Shown here piece by piece: positions 3,317-44,815 of a stretch of DNA of 64,000 bases. The stretch comes from Thermosporothrix hazakensis. Its GTDB lineage: Bacteria; Chloroflexota; Ktedonobacteria; Ktedonobacterales; Ktedonobacteraceae. Where the stretch lies: positions 1 to 64,000 of the forward strand of contig NZ_QKUF01000012.1 of NCBI RefSeq assembly GCF_003253565.1. The letters run 5' to 3'. The notes under the pieces are model-generated. The model worked only from the letters and a program-made list of their open reading frames with translations, was not told where the DNA came from and searched no databases. Position numbers and translations under genes: made by a program. How positions within the stretch are numbered: the first letter of the stretch is position 1; every line of letters starts with the position of its first letter.

Positions 3317-4558
3317 ATGGCCTTACAGAGAGAAGAGATCCAACTTGTTGCATCACTTGTCCCTGTCTTGAAAGCACACGGGTCAGAGATTACGACTCGT
3401 TTCTATAACATGATGTTTACAGCACATCCTGAGCTTTTGAATATCTTCAACCATTCGAACCAGCGCGATGGTCTCCAGCAGCAGGCACTGGCAAGCTCCG
3501 TCTATGCCGCAGCCGCGCATATCGACAACCTGGATGCTATCGAGCCTGTCGTGCAGCATATCGCGCATAAGCATTGCAGCCTGAATGTACAGCCCGAGCA
3601 TTATCCGATTGTTGGCAAGTATCTCACGTTGGCTCTCAAAGACGTTCTGGGAAATGCCGTCACCCCTGAGGTTGAGCGCGTCTGGCTCAAGGCCTATGAT
3701 GTCATCGCTGATTACTTCATTCGGATGGAGCAGGATATTTACCGCTCGGTTGCCGGGAGCAAGGGCGGCTGGACCGGCTTTCGCCCGTTCATCATTCGCC
3801 GCAAGGTCCAGGAGTGCACAGACATTCTCTCGCTCACCCTGGAGCCAGAGGACGGCCAGCCGATCATGACGCATCAGCCCGGGCAGTACATTACCGTCAA
3901 AGTGCAGAAAGATGGCTACAGCCACCTGCGCCAGTATAGCCTGATCTCGGCTCCCGGAAAATCCTATTATCGCATCGGGGTAAAGCTGGAACGCGACAAC
4001 ACTGAAAAAGCCGGTATTGTCTCTTCCTCACTGCATTACGATTTCAATGAGGGTGATCGCATCGAGATCAGTGCCCCCTATGGCGCCTTCACGCTTGATC
4101 CCCATGCCTCCACAGACGTGCTGCTGCTGGCCGGTGGCGTGGGCATTACGCCGCTGCTTGGCATGGCACGAGCGATCGCTGAAGAGAACCCGGGACGCCG
4201 GGTCACGCTCTTACATGCCGTACGCGAAAAAGCCTATCATGCCTTCGGTGAGGAAATCAACGAGCTGGTCGCCGCACATCCCTCGTTCTCGGCCACGACG
4301 CTCTATGAACGCTGCACCGACGCAGATCGACAGGCCGGCATCACAGCGGGACGCATCACGCTCGACTGGCTTCGGGAGCATGCTGGACAGCATATGGATG
4401 TCTACCTCTGTGGGCCACGCCCCTTTATGACGGCGGTCCTTTCGATGTTGCAGGAGATCAACCACCCTGCGTCACAGATTCACCTGGAAGTCTTTGGCCC
4501 TGCCCTCTCGTTCCCGCAACCCGAAGCACCCTGCAAGACAACATCGTCTGTACACTAG
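3317..4558 (+). CDS. hmp: Flavohaemoglobin, nitric oxide dioxygenase
   Basis: This 413-residue protein converts NO plus O2 to nitrate using NAD(P)H. The globin domain (about 1-140) has Tyr30 (B10), Phe44 (CD1), Gln54 (E7) and proximal His86 in HIAHKHCSL. The FAD domain (about 155-260) has RQYSLISAP, and the NAD domain has LLAGGVGITPLLGM and YLCGPRPFM. Length and domain order are those of E. coli Hmp. The gene starts 19 bases after the NsrR-like palindrome, behind an AAAGGACTCAG Shine-Dalgarno region. It is a cytoplasmic enzyme and is presumably induced by NO through NsrR. Confidence 0.96.
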   Translation: MALQREEIQLVASLVPVLKAHGSEITTRFYNMMFTAHPELLNIFNHSNQRDGLQQQALASSVYAAAAHIDNLDAIEPVVQHIAHKHCSLNVQPEHYPIVGKYLTLALKDVLGNAVTPEVERVWLKAYDVIADYFIRMEQDIYRSVAGSKGGWTGFRPFIIRRKVQECTDILSLTLEPEDGQPIMTHQPGQYITVKVQKDGYSHLRQYSLISAPGKSYYRIGVKLERDNTEKAGIVSSSLHYDFNEGDRIEISAPYGAFTLDPHASTDVLLLAGGVGITPLLGMARAIAEENPGRRVTLLHAVREKAYHAFGEEINELVAAHPSFSATTLYERCTDADRQAGITAGRITLDWLREHAGQHMDVYLCGPRPFMTAVLSMLQEINHPASQIHLEVFGPALSFPQPEAPCKTTSSVH

Positions 4559-4569
4559 CTCACTTCTCG

Positions 4570-4600
4570 GGAAGCGAGCCCTCTCCGCTCGCTTCCTTCT
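4570..4600 (+). terminator. Terminator after hmp
   Basis: Nine-base stem GGAAGCGAG/CTCGCTTCC (4570-4578 with 4588-4596), followed by TTCT. The U-tract is short, so strength is uncertain. Confidence 0.55.
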
Positions 4601-41736: not shown

Positions 41737-43413
41737 ATGGGGGTCACAGGATTGAGCGAACTCAGTACAGAATCACTGGTGACAATACTTGCATTGGTGG
41801 GCAGTGTCATTATCATTGCAGCATTGCTCTCAGGGCTTATAGAGCGGAGCGGCTTTCCTCAGATAGCCGTTTTTCTTTTGATGGGCGCAATCATCGGACC
41901 TGCCGGCCTGGGCGTATTCGACGTTACATTGACATCGCCTATTTTACATATCGTGGCAACACTCAGCCTGGTGCTTGTCCTTTTTACCGACGCAATCGCG
42001 CTTGATCTGGAAGAAGTGCGCCGTTCAAGCCGTCTCACCCTGCTGATTCTCGGTCCTGGAACCTTGCTCACCGCGGCTCTGGTCGCGCTACTGGCCTGGG
42101 CATTTCTGCACCTCTCCATTCCTGCCTCAATCCTGATCGGGGCCGCACTGGCCTCGACTGACCCGGTCCTGCTTCGCGGCTTCCTGCGCCTGGGCAACGT
42201 TCCATCCAACGTCAAGCAGGGGCTCCGCCTGGAAAGCGGTCTGAACGATATTGTGCTGCTGCCAATCGTCCTGGTAGCAATGACCTTTCTGCAGGAGAAA
42301 GCCCCCCAGACAGCGAGCGAGTGGGCACGAATTGCGCTTGATCTCTTTGTGCTTGGTCCTGGCGCGGGTATCCTGATAGGCGTCTGTGGCGTGGCGACAA
42401 TGGCTGTGATTCGGCGTAATATCGGGATTCGGCGCGAATATGAGTCCCTCTACTCACTTGGCATCGCGTTCACTGCCTATGCCGCCGCGGAAGCTGTACA
42501 CGGCAGTGGCTTTCTGGCCGCCTTTGCCGCGGGTTTTGTCATCGCCGCGCTGGATGTCGAAATGTGTGATTGCTTCCTGGAGTATGGCGAGACAACAGCC
42601 GAGTTGACGCTGCTCTTCACCTTTGTTCTGTTTGGCACATCCCTGATCTGGAGCGGCCTGACGATTTTGAGTCTGCCGCTGATCCTGTTCACCATCTGTG
42701 CTCTCCTGGTGCGCCCCTTCTCGCTGCTACTCTCCCTGGTTCGCGAGCGGATGACGCGCAAGGAGCGGCTCTTGATCTCATGGTTTGGCCCGCGTGGCCT
42801 CAGTTCGTTACTGCTGGTCCTGTTACCGGTTTTCTCGGGTATTTCAGCAGGAGAGCAGCTTTTCGAGATCACCTCGGTCGTTGTGCTCCTCTCCATTCTT
42901 GTTCATGGTGGCTCATCATCCTTCATTGTGCGCCGCAATTCGCACACACGCGACACGCAACCACCGCACGTACCAGAAGAGGCAAGCGAGCAGCCTGCAT
43001 CAACAAAGCAGGTGGTAGAGTTTATGCCACGAGAACAGGCACAGATCGCCATGAAAAGGGGGAAACAAGCAATCCCGGATCGCCTCACGCTCGATGAGAT
43101 ACAGAGATTACAAAAGCATGGAAAGAATATTTACCTTATTGATGCACGTAAGACGAGATCATATGAGAAAAGCGACGTACGGGCAAAGGGCTCGCTGCGA
43201 ATCGATCCGGATCACGCTGTAGAGCAGGTCCGGCAGCTCAATCTGCCCCTGACTGCCTGGCTAATTCCCTACTGTACCTGACCAAATGAAGAAACAAGCG
43301 CCCGTGTGGCGCACGAGCTACAACAGGCCGGTTGGACCCATTCCTATGCGCTCGCTGGTGGCTGGCAAGCATGGGTAGACGCAGGACTTCCCGTCGAACC
43401 CAAAACAGCGTGA
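41737..43413 (+). CDS. CPA1 (NhaP-type) cation/H+ antiporter with C-terminal rhodanese; in-frame TGA at codon 515 (candidate selenocysteine)
   Basis: The membrane part (about 1-400) has 12 or so segments of the NhaP/Kef fold with conserved TDAIALDLEEV, ALASTDPVLLRG, LESGLNDIV and SWFGPRGLSSLLL. After a linker comes a rhodanese domain (from about 450): IYLIDARKTRSYEKSDVRAK, then TAWLIPYCT. A TGA (43279-43281) follows, and then PNEETSARVAHELQQAGWTH, SYALAGGWQAWVDAGLP to the real stop at 43411-43413, all in one frame. Cys513 is the rhodanese nucleophile; the TGA falls on the second Cys of the family CxC pattern. Without readthrough the gene ends at 43281 and the domain is lost. The end abuts nhaA at 43415. 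Start uncertain (TTG 41641 or 41752 are alternatives). Confidence 0.8.
43298..43312 (+). promoter_or_regulatory. SECIS-like hairpin downstream of the in-frame TGA
   Basis: Perfect five-base stem GCGCC/GGCGC with loop CGTGT (43303-43307). The loop lies 21 bases after the TGA and has a G in its first two positions. Both are features of bacterial SECIS elements. The stem is short and within a GC-rich coding region, so it can also be chance. Confidence 0.4.
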
Positions 43414-43414
43414 G

Positions 43415-44764
43415 TCAACGCCCGGGGAGCCAGCGGAGCAGCAAATACCCGATCACTCCCGAGAGCAACAGTGCAAGCAGAATGCCTACTTTGGCATCTT
43501 TCAACAGGGTTTCATACGCGCTGCTAAAAGCCAGCTCGGCAATAAAAAGAGACATGGTAAAGCCAATGCCAGCCAGCCAGCCAACGCCATAAATATGCCG
43601 GAAAGTTACGCCCTCAGGCAGCTCGGCCCAACGCAGCCTGACAACCAGCCAGGAGAGCAGCGTAATACCCAATTGCTTGCCAATCACCAGCCCGGTCACA
43701 ACGCCCAGGCTCACCGGGCTGAACAGGGACAACCCCAGTTCGCCGGGGTTCAGGTTCACACCCGCATTCGCCAGCACAAACAGCGGCACAATCACATATG
43801 AGACAGGATCATTCAGCGCATGCTCGATTCGTTGAAGCGGCGTTTGAATCCGCTCACAAGCCGTTTCAAGCGCCTGCACCGCCGTCTGCTGGCGATTATC
43901 CATATAGAGGCCTGTTCCCGGTGCGCAAGCCTGCTCGAACTCATCAAGCACCTCGCGGCTCTGCCGAAGGAAGGTCGTAGACGCAATACGAGAACGAGCG
44001 GGAATAGTCAGGGCCAGCAGCACGCCCGCGATGGTCGCATGCACCCCCGACAGAAAGACGGCAAACCAGAGCAGCAGGCCAAGCAGCGCATACGTCAGCC
44101 AGTGACGCACCCCGAGAGCATTGATGAGGACCAGGAAGAGAAACAGGAGCACTGCCGCTCCCAGAGCGACCCAGGAGAGATTCGATGTATAGAAAATGGC
44201 AATCACCGTCACTGCAAGCAGGTCGTCAGCAATCGCGAGCGCCGTCAGGAAGATCTTGAGCGTTTGTGGGATATGGTTTCCCAACAGGGCCAGAATCCCA
44301 AGCACGAAAGCGATATCTGTCGCCATTGGAATGCCCCACCCGCGCAACGCATCTGTGCCAAGCGTCCAACCTGTATAGATAAGCGCCGGAAAGATAGCCC
44401 CGCCAAGAGCTGCCAGCAACGGAAGCACGGCCTGACGAGCGCTTGAAAGCTCACCTACCAGCAGTTCGCGCTTGATTTCCAGACCGACCAGAAGAAAGAA
44501 AAACGTCATCAAGCCATCATTTATCCAGGTGTGAAGCGACTCGTCAAGGACAAAGCCAAAAAGCGAGATGCTCAGGTGGCTCTCCCAGAAGCGGGGGTAG
44601 CTGCTGGCCCAGGGAGAATTTGCCCAGAGGAGAGCAATAATCGTACAGCCAACAAGCAGAATACCGCCCGATGTTTTCGTCTGTAGAAACTCCTGAAAGG
44701 GCTGCAAAAGGCGCTCGGCCAGGGTGTGCTCTCGCGGCTTCCGTAAGCGAAAACGCATACTCAT
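43415..44764 (-). CDS. nhaA: Na+/H+ antiporter NhaA
   Basis: This 449-residue NhaA exports Na+ or Li+ for two H+. The TDIAFVLGILALLG, FLTALAIADDLLAV (with the two adjacent Asp of the ion-binding site) and LFVLANAGVNL segments are conserved. Compared with E. coli NhaA it has an insert near residues 245-300 and a longer N-terminus, typical of Gram-positive and actinobacterial forms. The start at 44764 has AAGGAG ten bases upstream. It is convergent to the antiporter-rhodanese gene; the stop codons are separated by one base. Confidence 0.94.
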   Translation of the reverse strand: MSMRFRLRKPREHTLAERLLQPFQEFLQTKTSGGILLVGCTIIALLWANSPWASSYPRFWESHLSISLFGFVLDESLHTWINDGLMTFFFLLVGLEIKRELLVGELSSARQAVLPLLAALGGAIFPALIYTGWTLGTDALRGWGIPMATDIAFVLGILALLGNHIPQTLKIFLTALAIADDLLAVTVIAIFYTSNLSWVALGAAVLLFLFLVLINALGVRHWLTYALLGLLLWFAVFLSGVHATIAGVLLALTIPARSRIASTTFLRQSREVLDEFEQACAPGTGLYMDNRQQTAVQALETACERIQTPLQRIEHALNDPVSYVIVPLFVLANAGVNLNPGELGLSLFSPVSLGVVTGLVIGKQLGITLLSWLVVRLRWAELPEGVTFRHIYGVGWLAGIGFTMSLFIAELAFSSAYETLLKDAKVGILLALLLSGVIGYLLLRWLPGR

Positions 44765-44815
44765 TCTGCATACTCTCCTTCTGACTCCCATTATAAAGAA
44801 ATATGCGAAAGCACA

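Follow-up and report, generated by a model that had tools for sequence, protein, structure and literature searches.

Most known selenoproteins are soluble redox enzymes. An inventory from 2026, which lists 119 families of prokaryotic selenoproteins, also includes transporters predicted to contain selenocysteine (Sec), namely YeeE/YedE with the motif GUxSG, the SO_0444 Cu/Zn efflux protein with UxC, a cation-transporting ATPase with UxxC, and SaoP (PMC13188914). These differ from the protein described here in that they belong to other families, none being a cation/proton antiporter and none being listed with a rhodanese domain. No antiporter or exchanger appears among the 119 families, and neither word is used (PMC13188914). 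The closest entry of the inventory is the CxU rhodanese-like form 3 (NF041203, PMC13188914), whose model is a 126-residue rhodanese with the active-site loop LYCAU. Another related case is TsoB (NF045694, Rhodanese/DsbD fusion-like), which also places a Sec rhodanese on a redox membrane module, although its motif is UxxxxU and its partner is DsbD-like.

Two kinds of antiporter are relevant for comparison. PaNhaP (4cz8, 4cz9) and MjNhaP1 (4czb) are archaeal proteins of solved structure, without rhodanese, that carry the TDP and ND motifs on the antiporter fold. KefC (8by2, 8bxg) is a thiol-responsive K+/H+ antiporter regulated by a cytosolic domain at its C-terminus, the nucleotide- and GSH-binding KTN domain. 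Kef shows no activity in the presence of GSH and is switched on by GSH conjugates; its regulatory loop belongs to the membrane domain (PMC4819703).

The window is the whole stretch of 64,000 nucleotides that was analysed (Thermosporothrix hazakensis, GCF_003253565.1, contig NZ_QKUF01000012.1, positions 1–64,000, forward strand). It contains a gene predicted to encode an NhaP-type antiporter fused to a Sec-containing rhodanese (Table 1). The frame, opened by the ATG at 41737 or by an alternative TTG at 41752 where several homologues start, holds a single internal TGA, located two codons downstream of a TGT cysteine codon. It then runs for 43 more codons (PNEETSARVAHELQQAGWTHSYALAGGWQAWVDAGLPVEPKTA) to a stop TGA at 43411–43413, confirming what an earlier note had read from the letters of the window. 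The only Pfam matches of the protein are Na_H_Exchanger (residues 22–394) and Rhodanese (residues 447–543), the TGA lying inside the span of the latter. Nine Ktedonobacterales homologues align with the protein from end to end.

Table 1. Coordinates of the antiporter-rhodanese gene and of its predicted features in the window
Feature	Position	Strand	Details
Predicted antiporter-rhodanese selenoprotein gene	41737..43413	+	558 codons including Sec, from ATG 41737; Pfam PF00999 and PF00581
Predicted CPA1-type (NhaP-like) Na+ or K+/H+ antiporter domain	41752..42960	+	STDP and ND motifs; Foldseek; AlphaFold
CxC (Cys-Asp-Cys, C272/C274; LDVEMCDCFLEYGE)	42565..42573	+	Loop between helices 'GFLAAFAAGF' and 'LLFTFVLFG'
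C-terminal rhodanese domain	43075..43404	+	Relative of NF041203 (rhodanese_LYCAU (seleno)protein), 84–87 bits against a cut-off of 115
Cys codon TGT at the rhodanese nucleophile position (Y-C-T-U)	43273..43275	+	Invariant across the alignment
In-frame TGA, predicted Sec (U510, C-x-U motif)	43279..43281	+	TGA or Cys throughout 88 distinct homologues
Post-TGA tail finishing the rhodanese (ETSARVA, ALAGGWQAW)	43282..43410	+	43 codons; T515, S516, R518, G536, G537 and W541 conserved in relatives
bSECIS-like hairpin GCGCC-CGTGT-GGCGC	43298..43312	+	Stem 43298–43302/43308–43312, loop CGTGT 43303–43307

The search for homologues covered 84,980 species genomes plus 400 of Chloroflexota, and yielded 88 distinct sequences that include the TGA site. 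The codon at this site is TGA in 76 of them, TGC in nine and TGT in three, and no other codon was found. Within the order of T. hazakensis, nine genomes including that of the window share this TGA codon, in the motif YC[T/A]-U, the other eight homologues being 38–61% identical to the window protein. The 76 Sec forms span at least six phyla: Chloroflexota including Thermomicrobiota (41), Acidobacteriota (17), Gemmatimonadota (10), Armatimonadota (2), Myxococcota (2) and Eisenbacteria (1), with three of doubtful or no assignment. Sec forms are carried by cultured bacteria such as Ktedonosporobacter rubrisoli SCAWS-G2, Dictyobacter aurantiacus and Pyrinomonas methylaliphatogenes. Cys forms were found in Chloroflexota, Nitrospirota and Armatimonadota, and in two records of uncertain origin. 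On an unrooted tree of 85 proteins, the Sec/Cys label changes at least four to five times (mean of 11.4 for shuffled labels), and the nesting of Cys forms among Sec forms fits a repeated replacement of Sec by Cys. Genes from records titled Scytonema, Gracilibacteria and Bacteroidetes (L096, L066 and L125) group with those of Chloroflexota, and probably come from misbinned or contaminant contigs.

A nonsense mutation of TGC or TGT to TGA, a pseudogene or a sequencing error would require just one base change in a single genome, and the mutation had been put forward by the earlier note as the rival to Sec. This explanation is refuted by the comparison of homologues and has next to no probability, as 76 distinct genes belonging to several phyla share the TGA at this codon, the tail and the hairpin are conserved, and 12 Cys forms exist. 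The alignment with relatives proposed in the earlier note thus gave a column of TGA or Cys only, and the stops scattered over the tail that the note had named as counter-evidence were not found: the only internal stop in the Sec-form genes is the TGA of this column.

The genome assembly to which the window belongs (G000, 7.28 Mb, 88 contigs) possesses the genes for Sec incorporation that the earlier note had suggested looking for, namely selB above its curated cut-off (C15:110991), selA (585 bits), selD, and a tRNA-Sec with the anticodon TCA. Three UGA genes were found in this genome: that of the antiporter-rhodanese, selD, which has its own single in-frame TGA (SCAG-U-ASKMG), and a formate dehydrogenase-like gene (L166, C2:458268–461123) with an in-frame TGA at the usual Sec site of FdhA (QARI-U-HSSTVPGLG). 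Across genomes, selA or selB exceeded the cut-off in 34 of 37 with a Sec form versus 4 of 12 with a Cys form (Fisher p = 1.4e-4, n = 49), absences being soft because many of the 49 are incomplete metagenome-assembled genomes. The Sec-form assemblies without selA and selB above cut-off are G423, G434 and G439, of which one is a 1.7-Mb assembly and one is probably a contaminant contig. TGA is reassigned in some bacteria. A reassignment here, such as to Trp or Gly, and plain read-through were nevertheless rejected as very improbable, since the antiporter-rhodanese gene itself terminates at a TGA, relatives without the TGA have Cys in its place and none has Trp or Gly, and the Sec machinery of the genome is complete.

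The loop of the hairpin that follows the TGA starts 21 nucleotides past it, with a G at position 2, exactly as described in the earlier note. Taken by itself, the hairpin of the window gene could have arisen by chance, as it also forms in about 4% of synonymous recodings that leave the peptide unchanged. Among homologues, all five stem pairs are kept in 76 of the 76 TGA genes, at an unchanged distance from the TGA. The pairs are maintained by compensatory changes (GCACC/GGTGC, GTACC/GGTAC, GTGTC/GACAC and GCGTC/GACGC), and the loop is limited to CGTGT, CGGGT, CGTGC, CGTGG and CGGGC, giving the pattern CG[T/G]G[N]. Of 380 stem cells, 380 were paired, whereas 2000 shuffles, in which the relatedness of the sequences remains, averaged 370.6 and never exceeded 374.

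Codon usage within the hairpin is nearly frozen in the Sec forms, with Ala GCC in 70 of 70, Val GTG in 57 of 57 and Ala GCG in 66 of 66. Ser is encoded by AGC or AGT only, and Arg by CGT or CGG only, with no use of CGC, although CGC is the codon that these genes use most often for Arg. The adjacent Glu, Leu and Arg codons outside the hairpin show ordinary synonymous variation. In the 12 Cys forms, the hairpin is mostly lost, with pairs present at 50–83%, and the Arg codon CGC is back. Pairing in all 76 genes, compensatory changes, frozen synonymous codons and decay in the Cys forms are the signature of a putative bSECIS element under selection. The UGA is almost certainly read as Sec by SelB and tRNA-Sec under the direction of this hairpin. 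The Sec recoding put forward in the earlier note is strongly supported by the machinery, the column restricted to Sec and Cys, and the conserved hairpin.

The rhodanese domain shares with NF041203 a Cys-x-Sec active-site loop, which is YCTU in the window protein, YCTU or YCAU among its homologues, and LYCAU in NF041203. The homology extends over residues 442–551 with 87 bits. Membership of NF041203 was rejected, the scores of 87.1 bits for the window protein and 105.1 bits for the homologue L060 being below the curated cut-off of 115 bits. No match to NF041203 above the cut-off was found in genomes of the window's class, where all the matches at E ≤ 1e-15 are the fused antiporter-rhodanese gene. 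Unlike the NF041203 rhodanese, that of the window is fused to a transporter that has a CxC of its own. The TsoB model gives 18.9 of 805 bits.

The antiporter domain matches PF00999 with 150.5 bits and contains the motifs STDPV and NDI. Its AlphaFold model has a pLDDT of 89.4 and a pTM of 0.85. The best structural neighbours returned by Foldseek are PaNhaP (best 4cz9) and MjNhaP1, both about 20–25% identical to the window protein in sequence, followed by SOS1, SLC9C1 and KefC. The domain is predicted to be a CPA1 antiporter of the NhaP type exchanging monovalent cations, Na+ or K+, for protons.

The CxC of this domain lies in a loop with the sequence LDVE[LM]CDCF (LCDCF). All rhodanese-fused members have it, whereas about 28 CPA paralogues without rhodanese all lack it, a statistic that rests mainly on unseeded protein and HMM searches, the scan of genome contigs having been partly seeded on the CDC motif. 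The loop of PaNhaP that aligns with it has no CxC. Candidate CxC antiporters without rhodanese were rejected: L026 and L150 are at contig ends, and in L127 the match was lost before the motif. L084 was also rejected, its rhodanese lying in the next frame. In this record (Candidatus Manganitrophus sp. GAC4, ~4152–4579), the rhodanese, which is of the Cys type (FCACPNDETS), does not share the frame of the antiporter, which points to a frameshift or to a split of the gene.

Both the sequence and the AlphaFold model place four membrane helices between the CxC loop and the C-terminus, and the loop is consequently predicted to be on the same side of the membrane as the rhodanese, presumably the cytosol. 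Judging from the order of the helices, the CDC loop may be the counterpart of the regulatory loop of KefC. The likeness to KefC is functional only, as the window protein has no KTN/RCK domain at its C-terminus according to Pfam, and KefC has neither rhodanese nor Sec.

The best explanation, to which we assign a probability of roughly 0.8, is that of a selenoprotein combining an NhaP-type antiporter and a cytosolic C-T-U rhodanese, in which an exchange between CxU and CxC would gate transport. In the presence of oxidants or reactive sulfur, the CxU pair would leave its reduced selenol/thiol state and become oxidised or loaded with sulfur, as a selenenyl-sulfide or a persulfide, in a reversible cycle. 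It would exchange this selenenyl-sulfide or persulfide with the CxC of the cytosolic antiporter loop, so that the load of reactive sulfur or oxidant would decide whether the antiporter is open or closed. The outcome would be a pH and K+/Na+ response akin to that of glutathione-gated KefC, obtained by selenium/sulfur chemistry. The gating proposal is made because the CxC is invariant with the rhodanese, absent without it, and in a loop on the rhodanese side; the gating step itself has about an even chance of being correct. The same rhodanese-linked invariant CxC lends support to the possible coupling of selenium or sulfur redox state to ion flux that the earlier note had suggested.

Alternatively, the selenoprotein could harbor a rhodanese that acts as an independent, membrane-tethered enzyme, a sulfur or selenium transferase or a peroxide/persulfide reductase, the fusion merely localising it next to an ungated antiporter. 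Rhodanese domains do transfer sulfur, and the related CxU family NF041203 is a stand-alone one. Such an enzyme would have no need for a CxC in the antiporter, yet the fused antiporters invariably carry one and the non-fused paralogues do not, which makes this explanation possible but rather unlikely. It is also conceivable that Sec is inserted only under certain conditions: when selenium is scarce, termination at the UGA would release an antiporter with a cut rhodanese, of about 509–514 residues, and with selenium the full protein would be made, so that the selenium supply itself would set the state of the antiporter. Termination and Sec insertion compete at UGA, and the codon lies downstream of the complete antiporter domain, so that termination would spare the transport domain. 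This idea is doubtful, since the Cys forms are incapable of such a response, yet they retain the whole fusion and the CxC.

Direct exchange between the CxU rhodanese and the antiporter CxC would make the selenoprotein a switch, dependent on selenium and responsive to redox or reactive sulfur, acting on pH and cation balance. A cation/proton antiporter completed by Sec would link selenium supply and redox/sulfur chemistry to membrane ion flux, and selenium chemistry may govern ion traffic and pH in the cells that carry it. The invariant pairing of CxC and CxU makes the proposed gating mechanism open to direct testing. No antiporter-rhodanese selenoprotein family was found in the 2022 review or in the GOS survey, and no report of such a protein in the open-licence literature, a closed-access report being possible. 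We rate as new both this selenoprotein family, which joins a known type of Sec-rhodanese and a known type of transporter, and its candidate intramolecular redox pair. The wider proposal, that of a previously undescribed family of Sec-antiporters spread over several phyla and gated by the rhodanese through direct selenol/thiol (persulfide) exchange with the CxC, could equally well turn out right or wrong. Because gene calling with translation table 11 ends genes at UGA, the rhodanese is likely missing from routine annotation in several phyla to which common soil bacteria belong.

No conserved operon partner was found around about 87 loci, the largest clusters of neighbours comprising five loci, all from one clade, and a search of PLSDB for plasmid copies gave no match. 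The convergent neighbour in the window is nhaA (43415–44791, minus strand), separated by one base from the stop of the antiporter-rhodanese gene. It is a second, unrelated Na+/H+ antiporter gene, and its adjacency is not kept in relatives. In three Gemmatimonadales (L072, L087 and L092), a divergent second antiporter-like gene (MPPxEPLxxAxLL...) is located about 1.5 kb upstream of the Sec antiporter gene.
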